Shown here: piece by piece, positions 18,142 to 46,352 of the stretch
How the letters are laid out: each line of letters begins with the position of its first letter
Position numbering within the stretch: position 1 is the stretch's first letter
Assembly: GCA_015956445.1 (NCBI GenBank)
Contig: WIUZ02000020.1
Location: 682,001 to 746,000 of the forward strand
Length of the DNA stretch: 64,000 nucleotides
Source: Thelephora terrestris
Taxonomy: Eukaryota; Basidiomycota; Agaricomycetes; Thelephorales; Thelephoraceae
Direction of reading: 5' to 3'
Notes under the pieces: generated by a model
Told to the model about the DNA's origin: nothing
Database searches by the model: none
What the model saw: only the letters and a program-made list of their open reading frames with translations
Program-made: the position numbers and the translations under genes

Positions 18142-18762
18142 TAAGTACAGCTCCCTGTATAACTTTATTGGTGGGAACTGGACTGTAGTAAGTTGGAGGT
18201 ATGTGCTCAGAAGAATTCAAGGCCTAAGGCATCTCTAAATTTTCTGAGTTTGACGACTCCAAGGTTCTTCGTCAGGAGGTCCGCGGGATTGTCATCTCCG
18301 GGAATGAAGTACACTACCACGCGTCCATCATTGATGACCTCGCGAATATAATGATAGCGGATGTCGATGTGTTTCGACCTCTTTTCAGTAACCGGGTTTG
18401 AGGCGATAAAGATCGAGCCTTGGTTATCTCCGCAGATTGGGATTGTCAGGAACATGGTATTTTTAAACTTTTTATAACACGCTCTTTCTTCGAACTCTTC
18501 TTACCAATTCTTATGTGTTGAATGCTTCACATTCTTTATCCTTCACACCAATCATTCGAAACACACACACGCGCGTACTATTCCCAGCGAATCCACAACG
18601 AGCTATACAAGTGCTACCCAAGTCTATCAAAAGTCGACTCTATCTACGGCAGGCCTCATGGTCATCACCCTTCCATCCCGGAGATCGAAGTGCTGGCCCC
18701 TCCTCGCTAGGACCTCCCCGAACATGGCGTCACCATCTTCGGCACTCAGCTGAACGACTAGT

Positions 18763-20364
18763 TCAAGCCGATAGGAAGAGATGCCTTCGAGCGGACCGAT
18801 CAGCCTCCCAGATGTCACCGAACTGCTGAACACCTGGTCCCACATCTCCATCACCGGGTGACTGCTCGACAGTACTGTCGACATAGTCGGCAAGCGATCC
18901 TCCGTCTCCCTCATCGGACCCCTGGGCGGAATCCTGTCTTGCGAGTCGAAGCTGGTGGCGAAGCTGGATCTCCGACTCGACTTGTCGGTAGGGACGGTTG
19001 ACCCGATAGCGGAACTCTTGTCCCCCACCTCGACCAGACTGGTCACCATCCGACTCGACTGGACGAGGATAGGGATTAGCCGATGGAGCCATGCGATGAG
19101 CAGGACGGCATCGAGAGCGTTTGCAACGTTGCCCCTTAGTCACCGGACGTACCTCGGCGACCCTCGGAGCATCTTCAGCTCGGTCAACCTCCATGACCTC
19201 ATCCTCGATCTTCACCCACCGATGGATCGGTTGCAAGGCGCAGCGCCCACAGTTCTCCTTGTCGGAAGCGGCCAAGGTGGAAGCCGGAGCCGGAGTCGGA
19301 ACGGGAACCGAGTTCTCGATCGGAGGCGTCGCATAGGACGAAGGGTTAGGCGATGGGAGTACCACCTCGTCGGCGTACTCCAACTCGAACGGAACATCGG
19401 CTGTCCCCTGACCAACCAATTTGGGACCCTCCTTGCAATTACAGGTCTTGTCCTGCAAGGACTCGACCTGCGCTGTCAACACGGCCACCACGTTCTCGAG
19501 TTCCTCGGTCTAGGAAATGTCAGCTTCCATCATTCTAAGCAATGATGAAAGCAGCATTACCTTTTCATCCCTCCTGGCCAATGCCCCCTTAATGTTGTTA
19601 TCCCTAACCTTCAACCCGGCGATCAACTCTTGATGGTTGGCGACCATTGCCTCCAACGCCTCGTTCGTCCCTTGCTGGAAGGCAGCCAAGGTCTCCTTCA
19701 ATTGAAGACCCTCTGCTGACAAACGAAGGACGTCTGCCTTCGCCTCCTTCACCTCGCGCTCCAAACGCTCAACCTAGGCAGTTTGATTAGTCGAGAGTCA
19801 TACTCGAATATTCAAACGGAGAACCTACCTTGCTCTCCCCCTCCCGAACGAGCGACCACAATAACGACGTAGCAGCAGTGGCATGGCGGACGGCCCGAGG
19901 AACGGTCGCTCCGTGCTCCAATAGGTCCTGATCGTAGATTCCCCTCTGCAGGGTGTACCAGAGCTCCTTCTTGATCGGATGCTCCAGCTCCCCGAACCTA
20001 CCCCTCATTCGGAAGGCTACCTTCTCGGCGATGATCGTACGGACCCAGAGCTCATCATCCCAGGTCAACCCCATCAAGTGGGGCATCGTCTCCCTGAGAC
20101 GTTCGGCGTCCACTTCCGTGACGACCTCTAAGATCTAGAAGCCGTTAGTTTGACATCAACGCCAAAAGAACGTTCCTCTACCTAGAGGAAGGCGTTAGTG
20201 CGAACATACTAAGCTCTAGGTCTCCCCCATACCTGGTCATCTGTGGTATAGGGAGTTCCCGCGGCACAAGCGTAGGATTTGCGGGCGGCGGCACGACGGT
20301 CAATGCGAGAGATGGTGGAGATGCCATTGGCGACTTTGTAGGTATGGTTGTTGGGGAAGGACAT
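18763..20364 (-). CDS. Element A protein: coiled coil with Cys clusters and acidic tail
   Basis: Four exons (20233-20364, 19829-20134, 19561-19773, 18763-19509) join in phase 0 at GT-AG introns to an intact protein of about 465 residues. The N-terminus is MSFPNNHTYKVANG. The second exon encodes a Trp-rich block (LWYTLQRGIYDQDLLEHG). The third is a coiled coil (VERLEREVKEAKADVLRL...). The fourth has CNCKEG and CGRC cysteine pairs, a basic patch (KGQRCKRSRCR) and an acidic, Asp/Glu/Gly-rich end. I recognise no family. It has no transposase, RT or integrase motif. The retained introns argue against spread through spliced RNA. Confidence 0.75.
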
Positions 20365-20430
20365 GTTTTGGTAAGATGATGGGGAAGTTGCTGGTGTTGC
20401 TGATCAAGGATGGCTCCAAGAAGACGTCCT

Positions 20431-20440
20431 TCTTATAGCC
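20431..20440 (-). promoter_or_regulatory. TATA-like box of the element A gene
   Basis: The minus strand reads GGCTATAAGA, about 70 bp upstream of the start at 20364. The equivalent GGCTATAAGA is kept in copy A2 near 54545. Confidence 0.5.
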
Positions 20441-23400
20441 TAGATCGGTGATCCTTCACGTGACCTACCTCGACGAACCTCATTGGTCCGGGTCACATCA
20501 ACTTCCGCCCCTGTACCATCATTGTCGGCTTACTACATCAAGCTGACACCTCGGCCCGCGGGACGGCCTTGGAAGAACTTCGTTCCGGAACGCCTAGAAC
20601 GCGCACGCACTAAAAATAGGTCTCAAGACCCTGATGACCCCTTTATGACATCACGAACCCCTTTTTACGACCCCTCATGACTTGACGATTACGAACAACC
20701 CTGGACCCTGGAACACACACGTGGGCACGGGGTATCAACATTTGGACACTGTGCTTCTAATCGGATAGTAACCCTATCTGATCTAGTTGTGCTTTGGAAG
20801 CAGAGTAGGCCCGAGCCGAGAACAGCGGCCGAAGAATATAATCCCTGGTGCCACTTAGGAAGAACGATATTCCCAGGTGCTATGCCTAATCAAGACTGGG
20901 TCTGATCAAGCGATTACGGTTGCAACTCCCAGGTTACTGCCCGTCCGTTGGTACCATACCACCTACAGACAACAAGGGATGTGTAGAGTCTTCGATATCT
21001 CTGGCCAATCGCAGAAGCCACGAGACGGACTCACCTGACCCTTGGGTGTGGTCTGGATTCAGGTACGAACTTTCATGACCCATGCCCCTATTTCTTTTAG
21101 GACTAGTGTTATCTTTACCCTTATGTTTCATGCGGACATTCGTTATCTTTTATGCAATCCTTCACACGCTAGTAAGGCCCTTTGTCCTTTATTCTCCCAC
21201 GCGTCATATTTGTTCGCTTCCCTTACTTAGCGTTCTCACACTCCTTATCTCCCTTTGTTCTGAACTTGATAAGGGTATATTAGGGTATTGACGTCATGGC
21301 CACTCCTTTAGTATAAGTAGCAACTGTGGCTGTATCGTAGTACCTTAGTTTTGTTACCTCAGGAAATCCTCTGCCCTTCTCAGCCCAGTTGCAGTTAAGG
21401 ACAAGTCAGAGTTTCTTGTTTGATCCAAGACATCCCCATCTGCTCTCCCTCCCGCTCTGCGCGTCAACTGCGCCTCGTAATTATAGACTCTCTGCAGTCA
21501 TATTAAAACACCTCGAGCATCCAGTCGATCAACTGGTGGAGTCATCAAATCCTGTCGTAGGGATCAACCCTTGCTTGTTAAACCGAACGAAGTGCGGTTT
21601 AGGTTGGGTTTCTCTTTAGGATTTCAACCTGACTTGTAGTGACCTCGGACAACCTACCGGAAGAATAGAGACGTGATCGTTCTCTCACAAGCTAGTGAGT
21701 ACTCTGCGGAGTCGGCTCAGTGAACTGGTAGTTGTTGGGGTAGAGTGGCCCTGACAGGGATGGCTTTAAGGTCATAGCCGAGCTCCCCCAGTAGGGTATG
21801 CATCCAGACTACTTGGCGGCTACAATCGGAGAGCGCCATGTATTCAGCCTCAGTGGACGACAGCGCAATGGTTTTCTGCGCTCTTGAGGTCCATGAGATG
21901 AGCCCTTTTGCCATTCGGACAAAGTATCCACTTTGGGATCGTCTCTGAGTGGGGTCTGAAGCCCAGTCTGAGTCGGTACAGGCTGAGATACCTTCCCGTG
22001 AATCTCCGTCGTAAGTTAATCGATATTTGGAAGTCCCAATTAAATAGCGGCAGATATACAGCGCTTTCTCGACGTGCTCTTTTGATGGGTTTGCAGCATA
22101 TTGCGCAAGTTTGGTAACCGCAAAGGCGATATCTGGTTGGGTACCCAGCATGAGGTATAGTAAGGAACCAATTATGGTTTGGAACCTGCTTCGTCTTTCC
22201 GGGCATGCTACCTCTGTTGACGGAGTCGGCACATACCCGGCCGGGAGAGGGGTTGTTGCGACCTTAGCATTTTGCATCCCACATCGCTCAAGGACCGTTT
22301 GAAGGTAGGCGCATTGATCTATGGAGATTTTGCTGCCATGTCGGGTGATCCTCATGCGGAGGAAATCGGTTAGGTCCCCTAAATCCCTGGTTTCCCATAT
22401 CTTCATAAACTCCCCCTTGAGCTGCTCCGTAAGCGCTGTGTGGGGTCCGGTAAAGATGGCATTGTCTACGTAGATTAACGCAATCACGAATCTTCCATCT
22501 TTATCCTGGTAGATGAAGATCCCAGCATCTGAGCTCAAGGATTTGAATCCAAGCTTTTCCATGGACCGTTTCAGGGCTCGCCACCATGCGAGCCCGGCTT
22601 GTTTCAGTCCGTAGAGGGCACGCTTTAAGCGGAGAACATGGGTCTCTTTTCCTGGAGCTACGAATCCCTCTGGTTGTTCCATGTATATTTCCTCGTCGAG
22701 TTCGCCGTATAGGTACGCGTTTCGAACATCAAGTCCTTTGAGGACCCATCCTCCGAGGGCGGCCATTGCAAACATTAGGCGCACTGTCTCGAATCGGACA
22801 ACGGGGGAGAACACGGCATCGTAGTCCATTCCCTCAACCTGTGAGAAGCCTTTTGCTACTAAGCGGGCTTTCTTGCGACCATCTGGTTTCTGGTTGAATA
22901 CCCAGTGGTTTTTGATAACCTTGCGGCCTCGAGGGCGCTCTACCAGGTCGTATACTTTGCGCCTGCGAAGAGCTTCCAACTCTTCGTTGCAGGCTGTCCT
23001 CCATTCCTCGAGCTCTGCCTGTGGTAGTGTGGCGATGTCTCGGTATTTCCATTCTTTTGGAGTTTTTTCGTTGGCGGTTGGTGAGACGGCTTTCGAAATT
23101 AAGAGGTTTTGGAGCTCTACTCCCCCTTCCCGGCATAGCCTAGCTAGAAGGGCGTCAGTGTCTTCCTCAGGGGTGGTGAATCCGGATGGTTCAACGGACT
23201 TCTCAACCTCATCTTCGGACTCTGACGCTGCTTCGGTCTCTTCCTTAGCGGAGGATTCTCTCTCAGGAAGTAGCTGCGTGCTAGGTCCGGGAACTGCTCC
23301 TGAACTTCGCCCGCGCCTAGGTGCTACGGAAAAATCTCCGACAACCTTCTTCCAATCCTTCATACGCCGGGTAGATTTAATTATCTCTACCGGATGCTTA

Positions 23401-25343
23401 CTACCGTAAACATTGCCGGGCTTGGCCGGTACCTTCCGCTCACGCTGAGGCCTCTGAGTCTTAGTAGGTGACGGAGGCATAATCGTTGGCGGGGCGGGTG
23501 GTGCATCCTCAGGGCCGGAATCAGAGCTAGAGCTGGGTGTAGGTGATCTCGGCGGTTCCGAACTGGGCGCTCTAGATTGCACCGGCGTCTGCGGCCGTGG
23601 TGCGGGCTCAATAGCACGTTCCTTGCCTTTTGAGGAAGGCTTGGGGGTAGGTTTGGGACGCGCTGAGGGTGCTGCGTCATCTTCCTCTTGTCCTCCTGGA
23701 AGGGGACACTGGCAGTTACCGTCTTTATGACAGTGATGACTGGGTAGGGGTGGCGCAGTAGATTGCAGCCGTGTGTTTCGCCGTACACTGGCAGTTGGGC
23801 ACTTTGGAAAGTGCAACTCATCGAAGGTGGCCTGAGCAGCGGAGAAAATGATGTTGTTAGGTCCGCGCATAAAGATCCATCCTTTTCCTCCCGGGTGAGT
23901 ACCTAGGTAGGTCATCAATTCTGATCGGGGCGCGAGTTTGTTTATCCGTACCTCTTCTGGGATGAAGACGTAGGCTCCGCAGCCGAAGACCCGAAGGTGA
24001 TCAATTGAAGGCTTACTTCCATTTAATAGTTGGAATGGAGTCTGCCAATTTAGGCGACGGTTCGGCGTTCGATTGTAAACGTGAGTTGCGTGGTCAAGGG
24101 CGAATTCCCACCAAGACTGAGGGAGGCAAGCCTGTAATCTCATGGATTCCGCCTTATCCATTAATGTTTGAATGATCCTTTCCGCGCGACCGTTTTGTTG
24201 GTGTGCATGCGGAATAGATTGGAGGATCTCAATCCCCTTTTCCTTGAGCATCGTCGTAAATGTTAGGGACGTGTACTCCCCCCCGGCATCGGACATCCAT
24301 CGACGTACTCTCTTCTGGTATTTGGTTTCAACCATAGCCAGGAAGTGTCTGGTAGCCATAAGTGCAGCGTCCTTAGTGCGCAAATTCATGGTCCAGGCGT
24401 GTGAGGTATAGTCGTCATAGAAGACGATTGAGTACTTGTACTTGCGATAGGATTCAATGGGGAAGGTTTTTAGATCCGAATGGATCAGCTCGAAAGGGGT
24501 GCTTGCTCTGGTGTTGGATGGGGGAAAGGTTTTATTTGTCATCTTTCCTTGCGCACATCCAGTGCAGAGGTGCTCTTTTGGGATTTCGACATGAGGAAAA
24601 TCCTTGACATGTTTCCCAGCCTTTTGGATCACTTCTTTTGAGGGGTGAGCCAGTCGGCGGTGCATGATTTCAAAATCAGCACTATAAATGGTCTCAATTT
24701 TGGCGGCAGTAAGTTGCGCTCCGAGGAGAGTTTTGATGACGTAAATACTGTCATCCTCGGTTCGAGGGTGGAAGGTAAGAAATTCTGTTTCTTCCTCATA
24801 GAGTGAGATTTCGCGAGCACTCCCCCTCGAGAGGAGTCCGCTTTTGAGGAACTGACCAAGGGACAGCAGCCTATGGGAGATGTCTGGGACATGATAGACA
24901 GGACTTAGTCGAACGGCCTTTTCGTTTATGTGGAGGACCACTGTTCCTTTACCAATAATCGTCGTGAAGCTGGTCGCTGTTCTTAAAGGAATGGACTCAA
25001 TAGCCTCGTACTCCACGAAGTCGTTTATGTTAAAGGTAAAGTGCCGGGATGCTCCAGAATCGAGCATCCACACAGCTTCAGTTTCACTCGGGGCAGACAA
25101 GGTAAAACAAATATATTCGGAAGCTACTACTGAAGACCTAGACTTATCTTCAGGTGCTTCCACCAAGGCCAGACGGACCGGCAACCGACGCAGGGGAGAC
25201 AACATCCATCTCTTCATCCGACCATCCCAGGCTTACTTCATCCTCGCCTGGCGGGGTACGCGCCTTTTTGCGGGGGCGAGGATCGATTGTCTGCTCATAA
25301 GAGCGTTCCAGCCTTTTTAGGGTCTCAATCGAAGGCTTCACGC

Positions 25344-26327
25344 TTATGCGTGCTGCAAGGTCCCTAGCCTCCTGTACGGAGGGGTAGAAGGAAGGGGCCC
25401 CTGTGCCTTGACGATGGACGGGGGGATGGCGTATGGGAAAAGCCGCCATGGAGGCAAAACCATAATCCGAGACTGAGATGTTAGAGCCGGAGGTTGTGGA
25501 GGGGGAGGTGGCATTTGAGACTCGTCAGTTTGCTGAGCCTGTTGCTGGAATCTTCCTCGGCCCTGGCCTTGGGGCTGGCTCCCGTCGTGCTGCTGCTGCT
25601 GCTGCTGGAAATTTGGGTTCCCAGGGGCGCGCTGTACGTTGGACAACTTTTGTGCTTGTTGTCCGGAGCGACGGGAGCTGGACTTCTGCTCCCAGGCCAG
25701 CTTGACCATTTTCCTCAGCTCATCGATCTGGACTTTACCGATATCGTCGGCCTGGCAGAGGATCTGGGCAAGGTAATCGTAGGCAGGGGGCATCCGGGAG
25801 AGTATCATCATGGCTTTGATGAAATCTGGGACTGCTGCATTGGCTTCAGCGAGTCGACCAAAGTGGGCCATGATTTTATCTATCGCCGGGATGGGGTCCG
25901 CATTTCCGGGGATCTGTACGTCCAGAGCGCTTTTGAACTCCGAATAGATCCCCATTACGCCGGGTTTCCCATATTCCGCATCGATTGCCTGATACAAGGC
26001 CCAAGCGTCCTCTTCGGACTTGTGTTTTGCCTGGATGTCAGGGCTTAGCCTCAGGAATATATTTCCGAGGGCTTTGGAATTGTTTTCCTCCCACGCTTCG
26101 AGTGCGTCTTCGTCAATGTCTTCACCGCCCTCCTGTGCCGGAATTTCTTCAGCATCATTGGTGGCAGGGACAGCTGCTATGTATGGTCGTACCGTTTTGG
26201 TGGGCTTTCCCTTTTTCATCAGTCTCCACTGTCCTTGTGCCATCAAGAAACTTCTGACGGCAGGGGCCCATCGCTGATAGTTGGGGCCTTCGAGGACGGG
26301 GACGAGAGAGGTAAGCTGAGACGACAT
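25344..26327 (-). CDS. copia gag
   Basis: A 327-codon frame. The N-terminus (LVPVLEGPNYQRWAPAVRSFL) is the usual copia capsid start, with a Gln-rich stretch near residues 240-270. No CCHC zinc knuckle is visible. The frame shifts near 25450 into a spacer (to 25150), and again near 25170-25217 into pol. The second shift is +1 at a GGC CTT GGT context, which could be a programmed slip by analogy with Ty1, or mutation. Confidence 0.8.
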   Translation of the reverse strand: MSSQLTSLVPVLEGPNYQRWAPAVRSFLMAQGQWRLMKKGKPTKTVRPYIAAVPATNDAEEIPAQEGGEDIDEDALEAWEENNSKALGNIFLRLSPDIQAKHKSEEDAWALYQAIDAEYGKPGVMGIYSEFKSALDVQIPGNADPIPAIDKIMAHFGRLAEANAAVPDFIKAMMILSRMPPAYDYLAQILCQADDIGKVQIDELRKMVKLAWEQKSSSRRSGQQAQKLSNVQRAPGNPNFQQQQQQHDGSQPQGQGRGRFQQQAQQTDESQMPPPPPQPPALTSQSRIMVLPPWRLFPYAIPPSIVKAQGPLPSTPPYRRLGTLQHA

Positions 26328-26720
26328 TTTTTCTTTGGTTTTGGGGGGTGGAAGTGCCTACGCCCAAAATAAGAGTCATCAGTTAATGAACGCTTCTATG
26401 CCAAATGCAATGAAAGAGGGAAGAATTTAGCCTTTCCCTTCTTGAGGATTACTTTAGTGAGAGGTTTATTGCATGTTGCCTCAGTCCACACCGTCGGCAG
26501 ATGTTAATCGACTACCCTCCCCTTATGGGGTCTACGAATGTGTGTTGTGCTCAGCTTAGCCAATCACTGTTTCATCCCCTTTTGGGGTTTTGACTTTTTG
26601 TTCTAAGTCCCCTTCCTGCGCAGTGGATAGCGCAGTGGCAGCCACAGAGGGCGCACTAAGGTAAGATTAGAGCCTGTTCACAGCGCAGCCACAGAGGCGC
26701 AGCTTGGAACACAGGGCGTA

Positions 26721-26736
26721 GCCCGGGCTCATAACC
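26721..26736 (-). promoter_or_regulatory. Primer-binding site of the copia element
   Basis: The plus strand next to the 5' LTR reads GCCCGGGCTCATAACC. This looks like the anticodon arm of a Met-tRNA (CAU anticodon flanked by CU and AA) rather than its 3' end. That matches the half-tRNA priming known for Drosophila copia. Confidence 0.65.
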
Positions 26737-27092
26737 TGTTGAGCAGGTAGAGTATATTCTATACTACTACATGGCGTACTCTAGTTCTTACCTGAGAGGG
26801 GAAGATATAGTAGTGCAAGTGGGAGAGAGAGAGAGAGAGAAGCGATTGATTGATCTATGGACACATGTGGGGTATATATACTATCTACTCTATTATCGTC
26901 ACATCTATACAGTGTGACTGATGCATGGTCTGTGCGGCGGCTTAAGGCACGCGCGCGTCATACCGATCGATCGGGTCACTGATGTGACACCGTCCCTTCG
27001 GGTCGCTTTATTCAGCGCTCTCCGGCATCGGCTCTCGCACGAAGTGGTAGAGCCGGTTGACCCGTTGCCGGGCACAGACCTTCGGTTCAACA
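26737..27092 (-). repeat. copia 5' LTR
   Basis: 356 bp, TGTTGA...TCAACA. It contains a CATGGTCTGTGCGG motif at 26924-26937 and a TATATATACTATC block near 26873. Confidence 0.95.
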
Positions 27093-27097
27093 AAACC

Positions 27098-27181
27098 GTG
27101 GTCTACGTCGTGGACAGCCTTCCGCTCGCCCTTACATTTGCATGTTTTATTCTGTTGGCGATTATTGCTTACAAAGTTTAG
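27098..27181 (+). pseudogene. Last exon of an RTA1-like membrane protein, split by copia
   Basis: Joining 17754-17776 (after a TTCGCAG acceptor) to this segment gives one open frame: G-F-L-V-S-K-E-T then VVYVVDSLPLALTFACFILL and a stop at 27179-27181. The spacing G-x-L...E...Y-x-x-D-x-L-P plus a hydrophobic helix resembles the last transmembrane region of the fungal RTA1/lipid-translocating exporter family. No upstream exons were found, so this is a weak call and may be a relic. Confidence 0.3.
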
Positions 27182-28333
27182 CAGCTTTACCTTCACCCTT
27201 CCTTCCTTATTTTATCCCACACTCTTTTACACACACCTCACCATCACCGACACCCCGCTACCCTCTGGACACCGCAGTGTATAGGGTCCCCTTCTAAGAC
27301 GCATCGGAGATGCAACTTGTCTCGTATTTGCGCTTTGCCTCCACTGACGCTGGGGAGCTTGCATAGCTATTGGCCCCTCATGCCAACCTGCTCCCCCCTG
27401 ATGCGCCGCTGGACAAGGACCCACATCCGGTAGCCCCCCCTTACCCCTTTTTCACTTCCATGCAACTCCAGAACTTGAACCTAATCCGACACCGACACCA
27501 CCTGCCCCTGACCGAGGGACAGCAGGACATACAGGAATTCGATCGGAGGTGGTTCGTTCCCGCCTTTTTCCTCATCACTTGCCTCCTTCCTTCTATGGAG
27601 CGCACACGAATTTTTTCCACCACAACATGCAGGGCCAATGCCCCTAATTTTTTCCATACCCTGTCTCTTTCGCAGAGCATGCCCAAACCGGATTCAGTCT
27701 CTTTCTATGCCCCATTTTCTCTTTTATGTAGCCTGAGCCCCGAACCCAGTAGTTACATGGACTTTTTCTTTTTCTTCCCTGCCCCCGCGCAGCTAAAATG
27801 GGATGTCAGTCTTCGTAGGAGTTTGGTATTACTTAGTGTTTTACCACGTGTTCTGTCCATATGGATGAGCAGTAGGTTAGGAGTTGCTGTAGCACGTTAA
27901 ATCAGAATTTAAAAAAATAAAAATAAAAAGACGACGATCGGCGCGGAGGCGTACTGAGCTGGGCAGTATTTGGGTTGACCAAAAAACCAGTTCTCTCGTG
28001 ACCTGTTGGACTAATTAGGAGGTGGGGGGAAACTGCACTGACGTTCAGTCTGCCTCACCCAAGTTTTATTCGAAATTCAAAAGGTGGAAGTGTGGCGGGG
28101 GATGGAAAGGGCTGCGGAACTAATCCAAACTGGCGCACTTCAGCAAATTTTCCAGCGTCGAGGGTCTAGTTTCGGTGCTCGGAAATGAGAACCGGCGACG
28201 TAGGGGAATGTCTTCGGTAGCTTATGTACCTGGATTTTGTCCGCGGGGTACGCGATCAATCCCATCCCTTCTCTTCCCTTTACCACCATCATCCCACTTT
28301 AGCGCTCAACCAATTTCTCTTGTTACTGTACCC
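27182..28333. other. Spacer between copia and the LINE relic
   Basis: About 1.15 kb. It has a C/T-rich stretch with an open 176-codon frame (27370-27900) of no recognisable family, an A-rich patch near 27905-27930 and the GTPase 5'-flank relic at 27928-28115. Confidence 0.4.
27928..28115 (-). pseudogene. Relic of the GTPase 5' flank
   Basis: It shares ordered blocks with 7617-7745: GGCGTACTG, TTTGGGTYGA, TTTTATTCGA and GTGGCGGGGGAYGG. It also shares GACGACGATCGG with the right end of the relic at 16876-17190. No coding exon remains. Confidence 0.5.
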
Positions 28334-29836
28334 ATGTCTCACCCAGGTCAATCTCCTGACAACCCTGGCTCTCACAACCCTCTGGAAGGGCCCACAGTCT
28401 GCAGATCGTCTCCCCGAAACCTAAGTCTCCAATCAGCACTGGATTCGCACTTACTGGTCCAGGCAACCCCCAAGCCACCACCACGGAATTCACCTTTGCT
28501 CCTCCTTCCCCTTTCCCCGAGTCTGCCATCAGGCTCACGACCATCCAGCATATTCCGCCCTTCATGGACGGACGACAAGCTGCTAACAAGAGGAAGGACA
28601 GGCCTAACCCACCCGCTCTTAACTTAAATGACCCGGTTTCTTTCCCTCGCCCTGCCTCCGTTGCGGGTTCACGTGCAAACTCACCAGACTCCGTGAAAAA
28701 ACCAAAAACAGCACATACTAAAATCTCACAAACAAAGTCTATGGGCAAAAGGAGAATGTCCCTTTGCCCTAACGCCTCTCTCCCCTCTTCACCTGTCATC
28801 GGACGTCGTATTTCCTCCACAGACCCGGACAGGAACACTCGCAAACAAGAATCTGTGGACATCACCCATAGGATGCAAGAACGCCTGTCAGGCCGATGCG
28901 ACCTCTACAGTTCAATAGCACTCTTGCTATCCAAACCTATCACACTCAGGGGTCAAACACACAGTAATCACCCTGTTGCAAACCCAGGGATATTGGAAGT
29001 CTCTTCACAGAATAGAGATGGAGAGAAGGAGAAAGAAGGAGACAAGGGTCTTCAGGCACTCTTGCTCTAAGCACACAGCAGTAGAGGTCATGGAGAGTCT
29101 GATGTATTGGTAGTTACTAGCACTTCACTATCAACAAACTTCGTGATAACCTATTTTCTACCAATGTCCTGGTGTTGTTACTGCTTAAGGTTTTAATAGT
29201 GTTATCTGTTGTTTTTGGTCTTTTTGCATGATAACGCTATCGCCTGTGGAGATAGTTACCTCAGCATCCATGCTCTACCCATCCTCTAGCGCCACAGGTC
29301 CTAAGGGCCCTGCTTTTGTACAAGACCTCCGTCTCGCACTCTTGTACCATGTCGCACTGGCCACTGCCAATGGGACTACGTACTCAGCTGTCCTAGAGGG
29401 TTCCTAGAGTCACGGAGAATCTGATGATAACAAATCTAAGGAGTACAGGCTAAACTACTCTGAGTACATATACTACTTAGATTTGTGACGTGACAGTGAC
29501 ATGTAACTACACTAATGATACAAACACAGACAAACATGGTCCGTGCACAGCACTGCATGGTCTGTGCGTTACATGGTGACTAATGCTACAAATTATCAGC
29601 TGATAAACGAAAGTATGGCGGCCAATAGCAATTTGAGAGCATTACAAAACAGTTACAAAGCATGACGTATCCTGAGAATGTTCGGAAGGAATGTGGGTAT
29701 GGCTGACTAACAGTCAATGGCAAAAGGGGAGCATATGACTAAGAAATAGGGGCATATGATGTCATGTGGGTCATGCGCAGTAAACAATAGAAATGATGAC
29801 TCAACTCCTGAGTCGTGGAAGGGGCGTGGCATTTGG

Positions 29837-29843
29837 TATATAA
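29837..29843 (+). promoter_or_regulatory. TATA box of the B1 gene
   Basis: TATATAA, about 60 bp upstream of the ATG at 29902. Confidence 0.55.
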
Positions 29844-29901
29844 CCAAAGGGGGTTGGATGACTGGGTCTTTCAACAAACCCATCTTTGTTACACAACCAA
29901 C

Positions 29902-31608
29902 ATGCCTCGTGCCAACATCCGCTCTACCTCTCGTTGTGCCTCCGTTTCTCCTGTCATGGAGAACAACTTCAACATCAATCGCTTTTCCCATGCTCGTCGT
30001 GATCGTTCTTGCCCTTATCCTACTCTCGGGAACGTCATGGATCGTTCCGCCACCGCCGACCCTAATGAGGGTTTTACCGACTTAGGTTTGGGATGTCGGT
30101 TGACATATTTGGCGTGTCTACTGACGTTCTGTTTTAGGTTTTAGGGACTTCATCCAAGCTTCTCGTAGGGTGTCTCGGCGCAAGTTGGCGCGTATTGAGA
30201 CCAACCCTTATGCAGAAGAACTCCTGACTCGTGGGGTCAAGTTTGTTACTGAAATGAACGAGACCTACAACTCGATCCTTGAGGCCAGTGTTATTCATAC
30301 GAGTAACGTTGGTACTATGTTGATGGATGAGTTGGCCTATGTTCAGGCCCGAGTTGATAGTAGGAAGGAGGATATCGCTAAGCTTGAAGAGTGGAAGGGG
30401 ACCACTCAAGACATCATGCAAGGACAGGAAGACGTGATCGTTCGGCAGGGTGCCGACATCAATATGCTGAAGGGAGAGTTCGTTACTCTCAAGGATTTGA
30501 TCCGGAGTCTGGTTACTAAGACCGGAGAATTGGAAGACGATAAGGTATGGGGGCAGGGATCGAAGATAATTGATTTCTTCTAACCCTATTCCTTTAGGTT
30601 CGCCTTACTCGTTGTATCTCCGAGTTGACCAGAGAAGTCTGGGATCTCTAGAGGAGGTGCAACAAACCGGAGGTCCGAGTTGAAGAAGAGGAGTTGGAGG
30701 TTCCGCATCGGGCTGGTTTGCTGATAGTCCCTAATCGGGCTGAGTCGCCGCCTGCTCGTTTCACTGGGGGCAGGGGCATCTGGAATCGGTGATTACATCC
30801 CGATTACATGGTGAGTTCATGTGCACCTTTCAATGATTGTAATCGCCAATTCCAGGTTGATTACATTTAAAATGTTACCTTGACATGTAATTCAACTGTG
30901 CCCACCAACTCCATTTGAAATTTCCTCAAAGTGTTCCCAAGCAATGTTTCCTGAATGTGCCCACTGGGCACATTGTGAAAACATCTCATGTTTTTGAGCG
31001 CATTTATATGACATCTCAGACGATTGAAGAACATGTTGACTACATTGCAGTATCATTTTTGCTGACAGGTAAAAAACATCCCAGAAACATTTGTAGAGAA
31101 CATTCCAAATGTAATTGGTGGACATTGGCTAGATTACATGTCAAGGTAACATTTGAGATGTAACCAACATGGAATTGGCAATTACAATCATTGAAAAGTG
31201 CACATGAACTCACCATGTAATCAAGATGTAATCACTGATTCCAGGTGCCCTTGCCCCCAGTGTTTGTTGGTCCGTCACGAGAACAGGTTGGTTCCCGTTG
31301 ATGATGAGGTCATTGAGATTGGGAGTGACGAGTTCTACCAGAACATAGGAGTCATCCGTAGGGACACTCCTCGTCCTGAGTTCGTGTCTACTCCTTGGGG
31401 TAGTCGTCGTCAATGGCCTGCCTTGGAGTATGACCCGTATGCTGAGTTCGTTCCTGATAGTGAACCGAACTCTGATACGGAACTTCCAGATTACGATGAC
31501 TTGTCGGACGTGGACCCGAATGAGATTAGGGAGCAGAACTGGTTGGATGAGGAGTTGGTGAGATCGGCCTTGGAGGTAGTACAAAGGATTCGCAGAGATA
31601 TTGATTAA
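29902..31608 (+). pseudogene. Element B protein, disrupted copy
   Basis: Exons 29902-30085, 30138-30544 and 30598-31608 join in phase at GT-AG introns. The product starts MPRANIRSTSRCAS and has a basic segment (SRRKLARIETNPYAEELL) and a long coiled-coil-like middle (YVQARVDSRKEDIAKLEEW). Its acidic C-terminus has LPDYDDLSDVDPNEI and ends VVQRIRRDID. In exon 3 a TAG replaces the CAG seen in copy B2 (WDL-stop versus RDLQRR), and MITE M1 is inserted 110 bp further on. The copy is therefore dead. No family recognised; the function is unknown. Confidence 0.7.
30762..31262. mobile_element. MITE M1 (CACTG-ended, 501 bp)
   Basis: Begins CACTGGGGGCAGGGGCA and ends TGCCCTTGCCCCCAGTG. The terminal inverted repeats exceed 100 bp (TGATTACAT... 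and ATGTAATCA...). Flanked by TTT on both sides (30759-30761, 31263-31265). Removing it restores the sequence seen in B2. M2 at 52377 is the same family and length. Confidence 0.9.
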
Positions 31609-32070
31609 ATAACTCTTTTGTACTATGGCTCCTTAGAATTAATCTTCTATCTTGTCTATTGCGTGTGATCCATGTGTCGTTAAGCATAATGGTTTTCATA
31701 AGTCCAATCCAAGGGTCAGATTAATAAGCCAGTTGACTTCTGCAAGAGGTCAGCACACGTCACTTATTAATACATCCCTTGTTGTCGGTAGCTTGAATAT
31801 CTACTAGTCATCCAGGGGCAACGGAGGGCCAGGTAGGGGGGATCTTTGTATGAAGGTCCGCCGGTACATGTTCATGTATTATACCTTGGGTCTTCTGGGG
31901 TATCTTGACTAGTAGCACGTTCCATGTATTGGACTTTGAGTCGTTAAGCATAGGGCATACTGCATAATAAACAGTTTACTGCCGTGTTTAGGGCAGGGCA
32001 CCAACTGACTTAGTGGTGATGAGGCGTTAAATAAAAGGAAATAAAGGGGATAAACGGCGAAATCATCACA
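31609..32070. other. 3' region of element B1
   Basis: About 460 bp with no gene. It is conserved, reversed, at 58724-59180 and ends at the element terminus ATCATCACA. Conservation outside the gene suggests a terminal sequence needed in cis. Confidence 0.6.
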
Positions 32071-34677
32071 ACGCCTCGCCACTCAGGAACGCATGCGTAA
32101 ACACACTGACATCCTCAAGTACGCCTCACTCAATCCTCCTGCTATCCCTATCCCCCTCTCCCCTGCACAATCAGGCACCCCTGTTTCCGGATGGGAACTC
32201 ACGCCACAACCTCAACCCCCTACATGCCAGAAACAGGAGTCTGCCTCGCCCATCGAGATGGATGCCCAAATCTGTCCCATTACGGGACTACCCCTCTTCC
32301 TCTCCCCCTCGACCTCTCCTGGCCTCTCGTACGTGGCCCCAGAGTACGCACAACCCACCCCCACACCCGCCCCATGAGATCAAATGTGATCTTCAATACC
32401 AACTTTTGTACCTTCCATCCTCCAGTGCCTCAATGCCCAAGTGGGATTTGTCTCACGTGATGACAGACTGGGCTACATTCAGGAACACAAAGAACGCATT
32501 GCAGCAGTTGTCATGGACCAATCATTCAAGACTTCTGTCAAAGCCATTGACGGAGGTGACATGTCCGGAAACCCCAAGTCCAAAGTCATCAACAGGAGAT
32601 TCTTCTCTGAACCTGTATTGACAATTGAGACTGACACGATCCACATCCCCTCTGACAGAACCGTCCATACTCTGGAAATCCCTATTCCTCCTGGCCCACT
32701 CCCCTGTGCCAACACTGCAACAATCGAGACCAGACTCACTAACCTTTCAGTAGCCGTCAATGGCCTCCTCGATAACAGCGCCATCCTCCTCCACCGCCAG
32801 GAATTCGCAATGGGACAGAACCTTGTCAATGGGGCCATCCTGCGATCCAATGACAACAATCTCAAAACTATCAACTCCCACCTCGACGCTAGACTTGAAC
32901 AACTATGTGAAGATCACAAGACCCTCCATGAGTACGTTGGCGAATCTGCCAGACGTACAGGTCAAGCAGTCGGTCAATTGATTGATGGCTCAAATCAGCA
33001 ACGAGATGCCATTCTTCGCCTAGCTGCTGCGGTCTACAACAGAATGGACGATCTCGAACACATTGTCAAAGAACAACCCCAACCTATCCTTGACACTAAG
33101 TCTGCCATAGACTCACTGGCTACACACATGGCAGCCATGCAGAAATCACTGTCTGACATGGAGAAAAGGCTCAACTCCCTCCATAATAATCTCGCTGACC
33201 CTTCTTCACAAAACCTCAATATCCGCACATCGGCCCCCTCTCCACCCCCCACCATGGCAAATACCCCGAGACCTCCCACTCCCAAAATCTCAACCAAACC
33301 TCCCTACAATCCTGCAACTCACAAAACCGAGCTCAATGACGACCAATACATCACATGTTTCCAAAGCAACCTCCACGAAGGCTTTGAATGGTTTGTCCAA
33401 AATGTCTGGGACCTAGACAATGACCACATAAACTGGTGGGCCAGGGTAGTAAGCCTCGGAAGATGGGGCTACATCAATGAAAAAGGATTCCCTACAGGAA
33501 TAGGATGGGGCGTCCAAACACAGAGGAAACACAACTTCTTATACCTTTCCATCCAGCACGCTTTCGGAGGAGGCAATTACAACCGATTTCTCCTTCCCCC
33601 TTCCAGCGCAATCACTACAACCGATGAAACTGAAATCTGTAACCAGTACAACTGGCAAACTTTCAGCAGACGCTTGAGGTTCACTGACAGGCCCAAAGTT
33701 GGCCCCATCTCCATCAACTGGGCACCAGGATGGACTCGAGAGGAGATGGTCGCCAAATCGAACCACTACAGACAGATGCTCCGGAACTCCAACCACGCCC
33801 AGTCCAAAGCTCCCTCCAACTATGACCTCCAAACCACCGGGGGTCCACCACAACAACAACAAACCAGACAGGTCAGATTCAACGGTAAACTCAACATCCC
33901 CGACACCTCCCCCCCTACCGCCTCCTCTTCGAAAATCCCCTCCACCACTCCCACCAACCTCTCCAACCCCTTAGGAGCCGAGTTTAACACTAACGAGCTC
34001 TTTGCTCGTGTGGACCTGGATAACGATTCAGAATACTACGAGGACACTCACAAGGATGACAACACAGCGAAACCCGCCACCAGATCCTACGCCTCTGTCT
34101 CTGGAACGGTCAATACCCCTCTCATCTCCAAAAACTCCAATCTGAAATTCAGACCCCCTGCCCAGGATCACCGCAACATCTATGTTCTCAAATTCCCAAG
34201 AGACAATAAACCTACCCCTGGAACCCAGATCCCCCCTCCTGCTGTCATCAGCAAAATCAACACAGCCTGCAAACAAGCCTACAACATCAAGGCCATGCTG
34301 GCCAAGTGGACCCAGGCAGGCAACCTGTCTGTTTCATTCTCCCCCCAATCTTCTATCAAGAGCATCGACAACGCCTCAGGCACCATCATCAAAGAACTCC
34401 CTCCAGATTACCCTGATGTCACCTTTGCCAAACCCTCTCCCTGGTCCAAAATAGTCTATAAAAGTGTGCCCTGCAGAGCATTCACCATGGACAAAGTCAA
34501 CGGTGACAAAATGGCCCACAACGCCACATGGTCCAAGGAATCTCTTCTCAAGGAAGTCAAGTCTTCTCACCCCCTTCTGACCACTGCCAAATTCATACAT
34601 GACCCTGACTGGACCCTCAAGGAAGTTCCTGATGAACTTCAACATTTCAACCTTACCTGTCAGGGTTGAAGGCCTGC

Positions 34678-35301
34678 TTACTGTTTGTGGGGCGCTAGAG
34701 GATTAGCGGACGGGTGAGGGGTATCGGGTCTGGTTTTGAGGGGGGTTCCGGGTGTAGAGACGAGAGGGGGAGGGATATCAAGAGAGAGAGGGGACTCTGT
34801 CTGATAAGGGTGTACGGGCGAGTGGTAATCTTGGCAGAACTGGTGGAGTTGCTGTACGAGGGGTTCGAAGTCTTGATCGCTAAGGCGTTCGAAGTTGACG
34901 AGATATTCTATAACCGAATAAGGTAGTTCAGTTGGGATTTCCCACCAAAGAACGATGATAGCAGGAGAGTGAGTATGGATGTTAGTGGTGAGATGAACTC
35001 GTGGGGAGGGAAAGTAAAAGGCGGGACTGATACTGAAGTAGACGGTGGCAAGGACGCTTTCGGTAAGATCCGAATTCCAAAGGAATTGATGATCGGCTCC
35101 TAGGAGAAAGGGGGGAGTAGTGACTCCGGCGTCGAGAGCGGCAAAGGGACGGTAGTAAGGGAAATGGGTGAGTAAACCGTTGGTTCGGTTTACTTGAAGA
35201 CTTCTGATGAGCTTATACTCCCAGATAGATCTCCTAGCGTCAGGGATGACTGGTCGCTGAACGGGGCTTGTAGAGGGGAAAGGGTTAGGAGCGCTGAACA
35301 T
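34678..35301 (-). CDS. Element C protein a (207 residues)
   Basis: A single open frame from ATG (35299-35301) to a stop only 20 bp inside the element's end. It starts MFSAPNPFPSTSP, has an aromatic-rich middle (IWEYKLIRSLQVNR; ILWWEIPTELPYSVIEYL in C2) and ends in a Pro/Thr-rich tail. Copy C2 encodes the same length with about ten residue changes and no stop or indel, so the frame looks maintained. No known family, membrane segment or catalytic motif recognised. Confidence 0.7.
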   Translation of the reverse strand: MFSAPNPFPSTSPVQRPVIPDARRSIWEYKLIRSLQVNRTNGLLTHFPYYRPFAALDAGVTTPPFLLGADHQFLWNSDLTESVLATVYFSISPAFYFPSPRVHLTTNIHTHSPAIIVLWWEIPTELPYSVIEYLVNFERLSDQDFEPLVQQLHQFCQDYHSPVHPYQTESPLSLDIPPPLVSTPGTPLKTRPDTPHPSANPLAPHKQ

Positions 35302-35444
35302 ACACTAGCAGGAGAATTCCTGCTGAAATGAGTTAGAAAGGGTAAGACGTGAGGAGAATTCCTCAGCTTACTTTTATTCAAGTTGTGGGTAGAGGAGTAC
35401 AGAAGAGATTGAGAATGGGGAAAAGAAAAGAGCGAACGCTCTTC

Positions 35445-35454
35445 CTTATATACC
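35445..35454 (-). promoter_or_regulatory. TATA box of element C gene a
   Basis: Minus strand GTATATAAGG, about 145 bp upstream of the start at 35301; copy C2 has the same GGGTATATAAGG near 45575. Confidence 0.55.
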
Positions 35455-35961
35455 CAATCCTCTACAGGAGTCATAATTCTAAGACGAACCAAACAGGGAT
35501 CAACATGGTCTGTGCGTAGTTTAGGGTAGGTTGAATGAGTTAGATCGAGGGACTTAGGGTGACGAATGGTAATTGCTAATACGGAGTTAATAGAAGAACG
35601 GACTAATGGAAGCGTCTCAGGGGATTTCTCGTGTTTCGTGGTAGTAATAGAAGCATGGGGGGGATTTCTCATGATCGATGGGGATTTCTCTTGTTTCGCG
35701 GTAGTAGTAGAAGACAGACAGGGAATTCCCATGATCGATGGGGATTTCTCGGAATTTGATGGAATCGGATTGGGGCTGGGGGTTCATTTATCCTAAAGGG
35801 GATATTGTTGGATAATAGATTATTGTTCTCCTCTTTCGGTTTTCGTTGAGTCAAGGTGTATTTAAGTCATGGGGATAAATGATCGTTTTCCCTCATCGTC
35901 TCTTTTCCACTCCCACCAAACACCAGTACCATCTCTTCCTCTTAAATCGTCATCCTTCATC

Positions 35962-36934
35962 ATGTCTGCCTTTGACGCTAATACCGCCATGCTCAACGCT
36001 GCCGCCACCCCCTTCACTCCGTCTTTCGAGACGGACGCTCCCTACCTCGTGGAGCAACACTTATACGACACTCCCGCTGCCATCGCTCAGGACAACGAGG
36101 CGTCCATTAGCTTCCTTACGGCCCACAACGCTCCTCCTCAGATTTGGGAGGAGGCCGGCTATGAAGACCCCCGTCTCGATCGTTTCGATGCTCCCCATGC
36201 TGGGGCAAGGCGTCTTCTTAGCGGCATGGCGGAAGCGGAGTACAACGATCCTATCCGGGCTCGTTTGGATCACCCTGGAGTTCCTCGTTTGTTGGATGCT
36301 ATGGAGCGGGATAGGGAAGATAGAATCTTTAGGCTGGAGAAGAGGATGGATACTATGTACGTGGTTGTTAACAGTTTGAACAAGGATTTCTCTCACTTTG
36401 CTTTGGAACATTGGGGACCCTTCCAGGCATCTCTCTTCCGGTACTTCGGCCATCAATGTCGAGGAGCTTATTGCACCGACCCCCCTTGCAAGTCCCCAGT
36501 CATCCCTTCGCCACCGCCAGGATCAGGGCATTCCTCTCCCTCTATCCCCTCCCTGGAGTCCTGCCCCAGTTCGTCAGATGGTGGAGCGATCCCAGAAGAA
36601 GAAGAACCGCAAGAATCCGATGACTCGTTCTGGTCAACGTTGTCGTCCCTCCGACAAGTCACGTCAGGTTCGGATGAAGTTGAAGGTGGAAGTGGCGGGT
36701 CTCCAGGACCGCTATGGATTCGCCTTAGTGAGTGCAGCCTTGTCGGACGTGAAGCGGGAGATGCATGATAGCCTATATCATGATGTGTTGGGGTGTAGAG
36801 AATGTTGGCAGGATCCGGTGACGCGGGCGTGGTCTTATTGTCCTGAGAGCGTTCACAACCCTCACCACTTCGCTCATCGTTGTCCTCTTCCTCAGGACTG
36901 TTCATGCGATGTTGACCCGTTTGTTCTTGTCTAA
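35962..36934 (+). CDS. Element C protein b (Cys/His-rich, two overlapping frames)
   Basis: Starts MSAFDANTAML. One frame runs to 36768 and has a helical region, CRGAYCTDPPC and a Ser/Glu-rich end (EEEEPQESDDSF). A second frame is open 36398-36934 and has a basic block (VERSQKKKNRK) and a Cys/His-rich C-terminus (CRECWQDP...CPESVHNPHHFAHRCPLPQDC). The second frame's C-terminus is well kept in C2 and the more diverged C3, so it is probably translated. An intron between about 36440 and 36560 (GTACTT donor, CCCCAG acceptor) could join them, but I cannot prove it. Confidence 0.6.
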
Positions 36935-37021
36935 GCTTGTAGTTCCCTTTATTTACCTTTGTATTATTATTACTGCGAATGCGACAAATGTCTTGAATTA
37001 TTTGTGAGATCTTGGCTACTA

Positions 37022-37039
37022 TGTCACGCGTTCGTGACA
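37022..37039. repeat. Terminal hairpin of element C1
   Basis: An 18-bp terminal palindrome, TGTCACGCGTTCGTGACA: 7-bp arms with a 4-bp loop. It is also present at the same end of C2 and, with one change, C3. Confidence 0.8.
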
Positions 37040-37621
37040 TTACCTTCACCATTGAGGACCCAGACGGCTCCATTGCCCTCAACGTCCGACAGTCCGAAAT
37101 TTACATGTTCGCCACCGGCGTACGTGCAGTGGAGTGGACCGAGAAGATTAACCTGAAACAATGCCCAACGTTGCTGGACACTGGATGCCACTCACTCCCA
37201 CTGCACAGAAGTCTGTCACCTCTGTGGCAGCACCAAACATTCGGAACATACACACAACACCAACTGCCAGAAATGCCCCGCTTCGAAGAAACCAATTGAT
37301 GAGATCAGCTCAGCCAACTGGAGATGCATTCACTTCTGCTGTCGCAGTTGTGGTCAAGCACACCCCTCCGATAGCCTGGACTGCCAATCCCGAAGCACTG
37401 CAATTGCCGAGGCCAGGAAGAAGATGAAAGTACCCATCGAACAAACCATCCTTGACCCAAGCACCCTACAAGTCCCTGCTGCTGGTTGGAACACTGTCTC
37501 TCACCAGAAACCCTCTAACAAACACCACTTGAATGGTTGTCCCTATGCCCTCAAACGAGGTGGAGGAATCTAATCCCTCTCTTCCTCTCCTATCCAAACC
37601 ACATTCTCTACATCCAAGCAA

Positions 37622-44122: not shown

Positions 44123-44140
44123 TGTCACGAACGCGTGACA
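44123..44140. repeat. Terminal hairpin of element C2
   Basis: TGTCACGAACGCGTGACA, the same 7-bp arms and 4-bp loop as at the end of C1. Confidence 0.8.
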
Positions 44141-44227
44141 TAGTAGCCAAGATCACACAAGTAATTCAAGACATTGGTCTTATTCGTAGTAATAATAGTA
44201 CAAAGGCGGCAGATGAAAACTACAAAC

Positions 44228-45131
44228 TTAAACAAGGACAAAAGGGTCCACATCACAGGCACAGTCCTGAGCAAACGGACAACGATGAGCGAAGTGGTGA
44301 GGATTATGAACGCTCTGAGGACAGTACGAGTACGCTCGTGTTACCGGATCCTGCCAGCACTCCCTGCACCCCAACACATCATGATACAAGCTATCATGCA
44401 TCTCCCGCTTCACGTCTGTCAAGGCCGCGCTCACTAATGCGAACCCATAACGGTCCTGGAGACCCGTCACTTCCACCTTCAACTTCATCCGAACCTGACG
44501 TGACGTGTCGGAGGGACGACAACGTTGACCAGAACGAGTCATCAGACTCTTGCGGTTCTTCTTCTTCTGGGACCTCTCCACCATCTGACGAACTGGGGCA
44601 GGACTCCAGGGAGGGGATGGAGGGAGAGGAATTCCCTGATCCTGGTGGTGGCGAAGGGATGACTGGGGACTTGCAAGGGGGGTCGGTGCAATAAGCCCCA
44701 TGGCACTGGTGTCCGAAATATCGGAAGAGAGATGCCTGGAAAGGTCCCCAATGTTCCAAAGCAAAGTGAGAGAAGTCATCATTCAAGCTGTTCATGATGA
44801 CGTACATAAGATCCACACGCTTCTCCAATTTCGCAATCCTATCCTCCCTCTCCCTCTCCATGGCGTCCAACAAAAGGATGGCTCCAGGGTGTCCAGCTTG
44901 AACTCGAGGCCTAGAAAGCCTGGGGTCTTCGTACCCAGCTTGTTCCCAAAACTCGGCGGGAGCATTATGAGCAGTAAGGAAGTTAATGGCGACTTGGTTG
45001 TCGTGGGCGATGTTGGCAGGGGAGTCATACAAATGTTGCTCCACGTCGAAGGGAGCATCCGTCTCGAAAGACGGAGTAAAGGGGGTGGCGGCAGCACTGA
45101 GCACGGCGTTGTTGGCAACGAAGGCAGACAT
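44228..45131 (-). CDS. Element C protein b, copy 2
   Basis: Starts MSAFVANNAVL at 45131. One frame is open to 44394; a second, carrying the Cys/His-rich C-terminus (CRECWQDPVTRAYSYCPQSVHNPHHFAHRC), is open 44782-44228. The N-terminal half differs from C1 by one internal deletion of about 15 codons and by scattered substitutions. The C-terminal half is nearly identical. No stop interrupts either frame. How the two frames are joined is unresolved. Confidence 0.6.
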
Positions 45132-45728
45132 AGTAGTAATAATATTTGAGAGAGGAGAGTAGTGCTGGTGATTGTGGGTGGAAAAGAGGCGATGGAGGAA
45201 ACAATCATTAATCCCCCTGACTTAAATACATCCTGACTCAAGAGAAGAGCCGGAAAGAGAAAACAATAACCCATTATCCATTAAGGTCCTAATTAGGATA
45301 AACAAACCCTCAGCCCCGATCGCGATCCCATCAAACCCTGAGAAATCCCCATCGATCATGAGAAATTCCCACCACGCTTCTATTACTACCATGAAACACG
45401 AGAAATCCCCGAATGCTTCCATCGACTCGCGCCTCTACTGTTCCCGTATTAGTAATTACCATCCGTCGTTCTAAGTCCCCTCTCTCTGACTCATCTACCC
45501 TACCCTAAACTACGCACAGACCATGTTGACTCCTGTTTGACTCGTTGCAGAATAATGACTCCTGTAGAGGATTGGGTATATAAGGAAGAGCGTTCGCTCC
45601 TTCTTTTCCCCATTCTCAATCTCTTCTGTACTCCTCTACCCACAACTTGAATAACAAAGTAAGCTGAGGAATTCTCCTCACGCCTTACCTTCTCTGACTC
45701 ATTCAAGCAGGAATTCTCCTGCCAGTGT

Positions 45729-46352
45729 ATGTTCAGTCCCCCAAATCCTTTCCCCTCTACCAGTCCAGTCCAACAACCAAGCATCCCTGACGCCAGGAGA
45801 TCTATCTGGGAGTATAAACTTATCAGAAGTCTCCAAGTAAACCGAACCGTCGGCTTACTCACCCATTTCCCTTATTATCGACCCTTTGCAGCTCTCGACG
45901 CCGGAGTCACTACTCCCCCCTTCCTCCTAGGAGCAGATCATCAATTCCTTTGGAATTCGGATCTTATGGAGAGCGTCCTTGCGACTGTTTACTTCAGTAT
46001 CAGTCCAGCCTTTTACTTTCCCTCGCCTCGTGTTCATCTTACCACTAACATCCATACCCACTCCCCTGCTATCATCATTCTCTGGTGGGAGATCCCAACT
46101 GAATTACCTTATTCGGTTATAGAATACCTTGTCAATTTCGAACGCCTTAGCGACCAAGACTTCGAACCTTTTGTGCAGCAACTCAACCAGTTCTGCCAAG
46201 ACTACCACTCACCCGTTCACCCTTATCAGACAGAGTCACCCCTCTCTCTTGATATTCCTCCTCCCCTCGTTTCCACACCCAGAACCCCTTTCAAAACTAG
46301 ACCCGACACCCCTCACCCTTCCGCTAATCCTCTAGCGCCCCACAAACAGTAA
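45729..46352 (+). CDS. Element C protein a, copy 2
   Basis: 207 codons, MFSPPNPFPSTSP..., ending 20 bp from the element end. It is identical in length to the C1 copy, with roughly ten residue changes, mostly conservative or in the Pro/Thr-rich tail. The upstream TATA box (45578-45584) and CATGGTC-type motif are shared with C1. Confidence 0.7.
   Translation: MFSPPNPFPSTSPVQQPSIPDARRSIWEYKLIRSLQVNRTVGLLTHFPYYRPFAALDAGVTTPPFLLGADHQFLWNSDLMESVLATVYFSISPAFYFPSPRVHLTTNIHTHSPAIIILWWEIPTELPYSVIEYLVNFERLSDQDFEPFVQQLNQFCQDYHSPVHPYQTESPLSLDIPPPLVSTPRTPFKTRPDTPHPSANPLAPHKQ

Follow-up and report, generated by a model that had tools for sequence, protein, structure and literature searches.

Chromoviruses are long terminal repeat (LTR) retrotransposons that carry a chromodomain, and they are common in fungi. 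In human T-cell leukemia virus type 1 (HTLV-1), the antisense gene HBZ encodes a coiled-coil type protein and is controlled from the 3' LTR, and its body is not confined to the LTR. In mouse mammary tumor virus (MMTV), the protein gene sag lies in the LTR on the sense strand. Additional open reading frames (ORFs) that run antisense between pol and the 3' LTR have been described in maize Grande, rice RIRE2, Silene Retand, and Botrytis Boty (PMC7264820), and according to a later Botrytis paper, brtn of Boty is absent from the last annotation of that genome (PMC8365987). We analyzed a 64,000-bp stretch of the genome of Thelephora terrestris, a soil-living basidiomycete (positions 682001-746000 of contig 13 of the genome set; hereafter the window) that contains four insertions from three families, A, B, and C. 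A1 is a solo LTR left by a Ty3/gypsy chromovirus whose LTRs are exceptionally long, and it contains a predicted spliced gene antisense to gag-pol. Sequence comparison makes it probable that B1, C1, and C2 are solo LTRs of sister families. The genes in all these units are kept by selection.

The four insertions and their target-site duplications (TSDs) are located in the window as follows.

18439..18443, left TSD of A1, GGGAT (5-bp target duplication)
18444..21756, minus strand (gene orientation; gag-pol of complete relatives runs opposite), A1, an A-family solo LTR with the ends TGTCAGG...CCTGACA, inside a Ty1/copia pol
21757..21761, right TSD of A1, GGGAT (5-bp target duplication)
28886..32070, plus strand, B1, B-family unit, inferred solo LTR, TSD ACGCC at 28881-28885 and 32071-32075
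34658..37039, plus strand, C1, C-family unit, inferred solo LTR, TSD TTACC at 34653-34657 and 37040-37044
44123..46372, minus strand, C2, a further C copy that is complete, with TSD GCGAC at 44118-44122 and 46373-46377

In gene orientation all four insertions start with TGTCAGG, and they end with TGACA (A and C) or TCACA (B), as a first-pass annotation of the window had described. The perfect 5-bp duplications that it reported were verified on the sequence. When 240 bp of flank from each side were joined and one TSD copy was dropped, the frame of the empty site was open over 158 of 160 codons for A1, 159 of 159 for B1, and 160 of 160 for both C1 and C2. We also surveyed the T. terrestris genome (40.6 Mb, 60 contigs), which was read in part and not exhaustively. 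Among the copies with both ends inside the genome stretches examined, a perfect 5-bp TSD was present in 8 of 9 solo A copies, 10 of 10 B copies, and 9 of 12 C copies; the solo-A count leaves out four further rows, in which the A copy is an LTR of a full-length element. Thus, the ends and duplications of the three families are beyond chance.

The first-pass annotation regarded these elements as LTR-less. This is true within the window, but not for A in the genome, where a gypsy gag-pol lies between identical A copies of 3.3 kb. One such pair, on contig 12, consists of copies of 3303 bp that are 100% identical, start 9318 bp apart, and share the TSD TGCAC in their outer flanks. Gag and pol are encoded in the intervening 6.0 kb. 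As in other Ty3/gypsy chromoviruses, gag, with a zinc knuckle, is followed by protease, reverse transcriptase, RNase H, integrase, and chromodomain (Pfam domains). For A, the outcome that the annotation had named as refuting its view, full-length copies with LTRs, was thus found. On contig 23 there is an identical array of three A copies and two internal regions (LTR-internal-LTR-internal-LTR).

In the search for pol, 38 of 162 candidates were scored. Eight A-type pols were 99-100% identical, one of them with a stop, and three pols at 63% identity to A pol define a sister family, D, while all other scored candidates were at most 34% identical. D pol is classed by this identity, which extends over residues 3-1219 of the A protein. 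The D LTRs at one locus on contig 12 are 2934 bp long and 99.93% identical, with the TSD GTTTT, and all three D pols sit within D end pairs that are 8758-8799 bp apart. The paired LTRs of A and D have TG...CA ends and 5-bp TSDs like those of Ty3/gypsy chromoviruses; the TSD outside the LTR pair is present for one A and one D element, for which both outer flanks were readable. A candidate polypurine tract (AAGAGGATAA) lies before the A 3' LTR, and a candidate primer-binding site (TACCAGCCGGTACC), common to A and D, lies shortly after the 5' LTR. A pattern spanning the LTR end and leader of A/D gave eight A and two D matches, and its reversed control gave one.

Pattern matches to the ends, counted on both strands with one end per copy, numbered 409 for A, 130 for D, 221 for B, and 316 for C, and reversed control patterns gave 0 in all four families. 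These patterns tolerated up to two mismatches for A and B and up to three for C and D, and the counts include truncated copies and miss diverged or end-broken ones. A first A-end search, with 40 of 410 candidates scored, had found at least 42 places. Since there are 8 A-type pols for 409 A ends, the A copies are for the most part solo LTRs. The majority of A and D ends genome-wide lie outside any full-length element. The LTR pairs of the full-length elements examined differ at 0 positions in about 3300 bp (A) and at about 2 in 2934 bp (D), and thus full-length elements seem to be short-lived.

The LTR DNA of A and D is almost unalignable outside the gene described below, with one 33-bp stretch at the detection threshold. 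Among A copies that are otherwise mostly more than 90% identical, a hypervariable block is nearly unalignable (sense positions about 2200-2600 on contigs 12, L009 and L010, and 23, L012-L013; about 725-1030 in A1). It lies upstream of the antisense gene and is perhaps a swapped promoter region.

In both A and D, a gene lies wholly within the LTR and antisense to gag-pol. The gene models of all four families were built from open frames, splice sites, and selection, and in A1 the predicted exons are as follows.

20233..20364, minus strand, exon 1 of the A LTR gene (predicted)
19829..20134, minus strand, exon 2 (predicted)
19561..19773, minus strand, exon 3, part of a long coiled coil (predicted)
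18763..19509, minus strand, exon 4, with a CxC motif followed by a tail for which no structure is confidently predicted (predicted); in database models this part is also spliced differently

Four coding exons are predicted in the A gene and five in the D gene, and the first three introns are at the same phase-0 positions. The A and D proteins match with an E value of 2e-37 in a two-sequence comparison without composition correction, and an alignment of database proteins gave 32% identity. The 3' exons of both models are one of two possible readings, and the database models P0007 and P0073 are spliced otherwise. We aligned A copies that could be aligned in one piece over most of the gene (10 rows from 9 distinct copies), excluding interrupted or cut copies on contigs 4, 23, and others. 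In all 10 rows the exons had no frameshift and all three introns had GT..AG borders. The gene was readable to the end in 9 of the 10; L019 had a stop at codon 392, and in L020, which reads through, the start ATG was changed to ACG. In the AlphaFold model of an A-type protein (P0001), one long helix at about residues 150-240 was confident and little else. The database relatives of the A protein formed 72 clusters, 71 from T. terrestris and one an ENA protein at 6% coverage, while the four clusters related to the D protein were all from T. terrestris. Many A and D LTR gene copies are annotated as ordinary hypothetical proteins. One database protein, P0063, fuses the B gene to the A gene and is apparently a gene model across nested B and A copies.

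These elements differ from other Ty3/gypsy chromoviruses in that the A and D LTRs are 2.9-3.3 kb long and carry predicted intron-containing protein genes. The A/D gene resembles HBZ in being antisense and encoding a coiled coil, and it resembles sag in its position within the LTR. As in Grande, RIRE2, Retand, and Boty, it is a protein gene antisense to gag-pol that is kept in most copies. In those elements the gene is described as internal, between the LTRs, and therefore would be removed by LTR recombination; unlike them, the A/D gene lies within the LTR, is present twice per element, has several introns, and is kept in solo LTRs. Our literature search, which covered titles and the beginnings of abstracts and covered subscription journals thinly, recognized no conserved spliced genes inside fungal retrotransposon LTRs. 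If it holds, what looks new is the position of the gene within the LTR, so that every element has two copies of it and solo LTRs retain it. Genes located there escape loss by LTR-LTR recombination and can persist in solo LTRs, and about a thousand ends in one fungal genome show the scale.

The B and C units have LTR-like ends and 5-bp TSDs, and their genes start on the CCTGACA side, except that C-b runs opposite. Uninterrupted copies are about 2.3-2.4 kb long. B has one gene and C has two, C-a and C-b, all under constraint.

29902..30085, plus strand, B gene exon 1 (predicted)
30086..30137, plus strand, B intron 1, overlapped by 52 nt (B 1204-1255, window 30089-30140) that match the D LTR at 88% identity
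30138..30544, plus strand, B gene exon 2 (predicted)
30598..30761, plus strand, first part of B gene exon 3, with an in-frame stop in the B1 copy
30762..31262, palindromic nested repeat within B exon 3, inverted arms 30762-30891 and 31133-31262
34678..35301, minus strand, C-b, a 207-aa ORF opposite to C-a
35962..36420, plus strand, first coding part of C-a, exon end provisional
36578..36934, plus strand, second coding part of C-a, with a Cys/His cluster, open in 9 of the 9 copies compared

For C-b, no significant PDB or Pfam relative was found, its structural model was poor (pLDDT 47), and a fold search gave nothing at E 0.001. Its database relatives form nine clusters at 71-91% identity, one from T. 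terrestris and the rest from JGI, ENA, or another source, and thus C-b seems to be present in relatives of T. terrestris. An intron of about 54 bp within B exon 2 is found in 8 of 10 aligned copies and is cleanly absent in B1 and C23b_4200, indicating intron gain or loss in a mobile family. The 52-nt match between B and D covers mostly the last D intron of the predicted model (D LTR about 1971-2021), apparently at non-matching places of the two genes. We suspected a genome-wide mobile intron (introner) from this match. Its core has 161 matches in the genome, and those compared by position, among the 100 listed, seem to be D and some B copies.

Selection on these genes was estimated from pairs of copies. 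In the A gene (nine copies compared in 36 pairs, with L010 excluded because it and L009 are the two LTRs of one element), the ratio of replacement to synonymous divergence (dN/dS) was 0.06-0.21 over the whole gene and 0.02-0.17 over residues 1-340, with dS of 0.16-0.49. The last quarter of the protein was less constrained (0.15-0.50). For comparison, the pols of two A elements had dN of 0.0057, dS of 0.204, and dN/dS of 0.03, and their LTR genes had dN of 0.017 and dS of 0.209. C-b had dN/dS of 0.00-0.13 (36 pairs of 9 copies), and 8 of the 9 had no stop. This set comprised 9 of 11 matching places, and the two omitted were C17_21400, which is open over its full length, and the partial C23a_21379, open over 200 codons. 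Further full-length C-b copies in L017, L027, L028, L047, and one of two in L045 were open, and the other L045 copy had a stop. The second part of C-a gave 0.05-0.30 (median 0.11) and was open in all nine copies used, interrupted or partial ones being omitted. In B, the first 144-145 codons (exons 1 and 2) gave 0.02-0.20 (median 0.09), with a stop in 0 of 10 copies taken from 13 matching places. The dS between copies was 0.05-0.58 for C-b and up to 0.96 for B.

We also compared synonymous and replacement changes that are private to one copy with those shared between copies. The p values serve as a guide only because the copies are related and not independent. In A residues 1-340, the synonymous to replacement counts were 113:79 for private and 86:16 for shared changes (p = 7e-6), and 90:47 and 73:7 without the divergent L020 (p = 2e-5). 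The corresponding counts were 56:25 and 80:11 in C-b (p = 0.003) and 33:31 and 35:11 in C-a (p = 0.01). Replacements are thus far more frequent among private than among shared changes, and we read this contrast as selection during replication that becomes weaker after insertion. In a separate observation, the synonymous divergence of A1, L009, L012, L014 (two copies), L016, L018, and L019 was 0.16-0.33, higher than their intron divergence of 0.03-0.13, which is the reverse of the usual relation. Many synonymous A variants are common to several copies, and exchange between lineages or constraint on the introns is possible.

A cycle that fits these results can be proposed. The integrase of the element would insert a full-length cDNA, and the long identical LTRs would then recombine fast. 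This would remove gag-pol and leave a single LTR that retains the gene and is still flanked by the 5-bp duplication. The introns of the LTR gene would survive replication, since they lie in antisense orientation in the genomic RNA and would not be spliced from it, and so they would persist through each cycle. The coiled-coil proteins of A and D, the Cys/His-rich C-a protein, and the C-b protein may be accessory or regulatory factors that aid the replication of the element. Selection would maintain the LTR genes in replicating lineages and would be weaker once a copy is a stranded solo LTR. This suggests a way in which introns might be retained by a retrotransposon, namely in a gene encoded on the unpackaged strand. 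If the LTR proteins regulate the element, the families would provide a natural system for studying antisense retroelement gene function, relevant to Grande, Retand, and Boty.

B and C are like A in their ends, TSD length, solitary state, and gene placement, and we therefore favor solo LTRs for all of them. Several observations weigh against this explanation. No full-length B or C element was found among the 221 B and 316 C ends in the partly read genome, compared with 11 full-length elements counted by A and D pols, a difference that would be unlikely under an equal ratio in all families (Fisher p = 0.0004, on approximate solo counts), and none of the same-strand B or C neighbors examined, which are a part of those in the genome, had the structure of an LTR pair. 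C-b runs in the sense of the inferred gag-pol, unlike the other LTR genes, and the B and C proteins have no detectable homology to the A/D protein. Moreover, the private A changes have about 0.7 replacements for each synonymous change (79:113), against an expectation of about 3.2 in the absence of selection. These changes are thus relaxed and not neutral, and many of them must have arisen before the copy was stranded. The search for LTR/leader junctions of the A/D type also gave no B or C junction. If B or C paused a short time ago, the family could already be left without any internal region. The fungal Helenus families of terminal-repeat retrotransposons in miniature (TRIMs) offer a precedent, because some of them have no remaining full-length copies and are represented by fragments and solo LTRs, many with 5-bp TSDs (PMC10886601). 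Helenus families are marked by a tRNA-like sequence in the LTR, whereas here the LTR or unit has protein genes.

The missing pairs, while 11 full-length A/D pols exist, would also fit an explanation in which the B and C units, possibly together with part of the A copies, genuinely lack LTRs and carry genes between LTR-like ends that are recognized in trans by the A/D integrase or by C-a/C-b machinery. Alternatively, B and C might be LTR-only mobile elements, each a single LTR-like segment that replicates as a unit with its own genes; gag-pol would have been lost or never present, and an A/D-type integrase would act on them in trans. The strong constraint on B and C genes despite high synonymous divergence between copies, the match of their ends to those of A and D, and the two genes of C, unlike A and D, point the same way. 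We consider both versions unlikely, because A, a proven LTR, has the same kind of ends, TSD length, and gene placement and occurs mostly as single copies, and because A leaves no partial pol among the scored candidates, so that vanished internal regions are normal here. In addition, C shows the same relaxation of private changes as A, the B (exons 1 and 2), C-a, and C-b proteins tested gave no match to a nuclease domain, and a solo unit has no known route to integration-ready DNA. The integrase-like enzyme acting in trans that the first-pass annotation suggested is retained in part: a retroelement-type integrase is likely, but it is encoded by A's own pol, which is not known to act in trans, and mobilization of B and C in this way has only a small chance of being correct. 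The genes might instead be captured host genes or chance ORFs held open by the opposite strand. Nothing scored above a curated Pfam cut-off, with merely weak coiled-coil-like matches, and the database matches to A and D are almost all T. terrestris proteins. Such an origin is improbable, since the A and D genes are homologous with common intron positions although the LTR DNA around them is almost unalignable, dN/dS computed for the gene strand is nearly as low as in pol, and C-b has relatives down to 71% identity in other sequence sources. Ginger DNA transposons have TGTNR...YNACA ends and 4-5-bp duplications, and on this terminal motif and duplication length the elements had been likened to the Ginger type. 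Identical A copies flank a gypsy gag-pol with the TSD outside, so the A ends are LTR ends and not Ginger ends. None of the LTR-encoded proteins tested by Pfam profile search (A, D, C-a, C-b, and exons 1 and 2 of B) had a domain of a transposase or an integrase, and a Ginger identity for the three families is very improbable. Full-length copies with LTRs exist for A, and among the neighbors examined none were found for B or C. Solo LTRs, of a chromovirus in A1 and of sister families in B1, C1, and C2, remain our preferred explanation.

Several B or C pairs were considered as possible full-length elements and rejected. Pairs on contigs 1, 3, 4, 17, 21, and 23 had their own TSDs or were partial or nested copies. 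In the contig 3 B pair, the far end of the second copy lies beyond the stretch read, and there is no A-type pol match between the copies. Neither copy of the contig 12 C pair (L045) has TSDs; the sequence flanking it occurs elsewhere without interruption, and a large part of its middle matches other repeats. Both copies of the contig 14 B pair adjoin D sequence, and a C copy on contig 2 is nested in an A copy.

Other repeats surround the four insertions. The host of A1 is a Ty1/copia pol in which copia domains were detected. Copia LTRs are present at 17773-18130, 26733-27092, and 55817-56169, forming a 98% identical pair and a third separate LTR, and A1 lies inside that element. C2 lies downstream of a Helitron-type ORF. 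The palindromic repeat of about 500 bp in B1 (30762-31262) occurs again at 52376-52878, in a second A copy, and more copies are found in L031 and L040.

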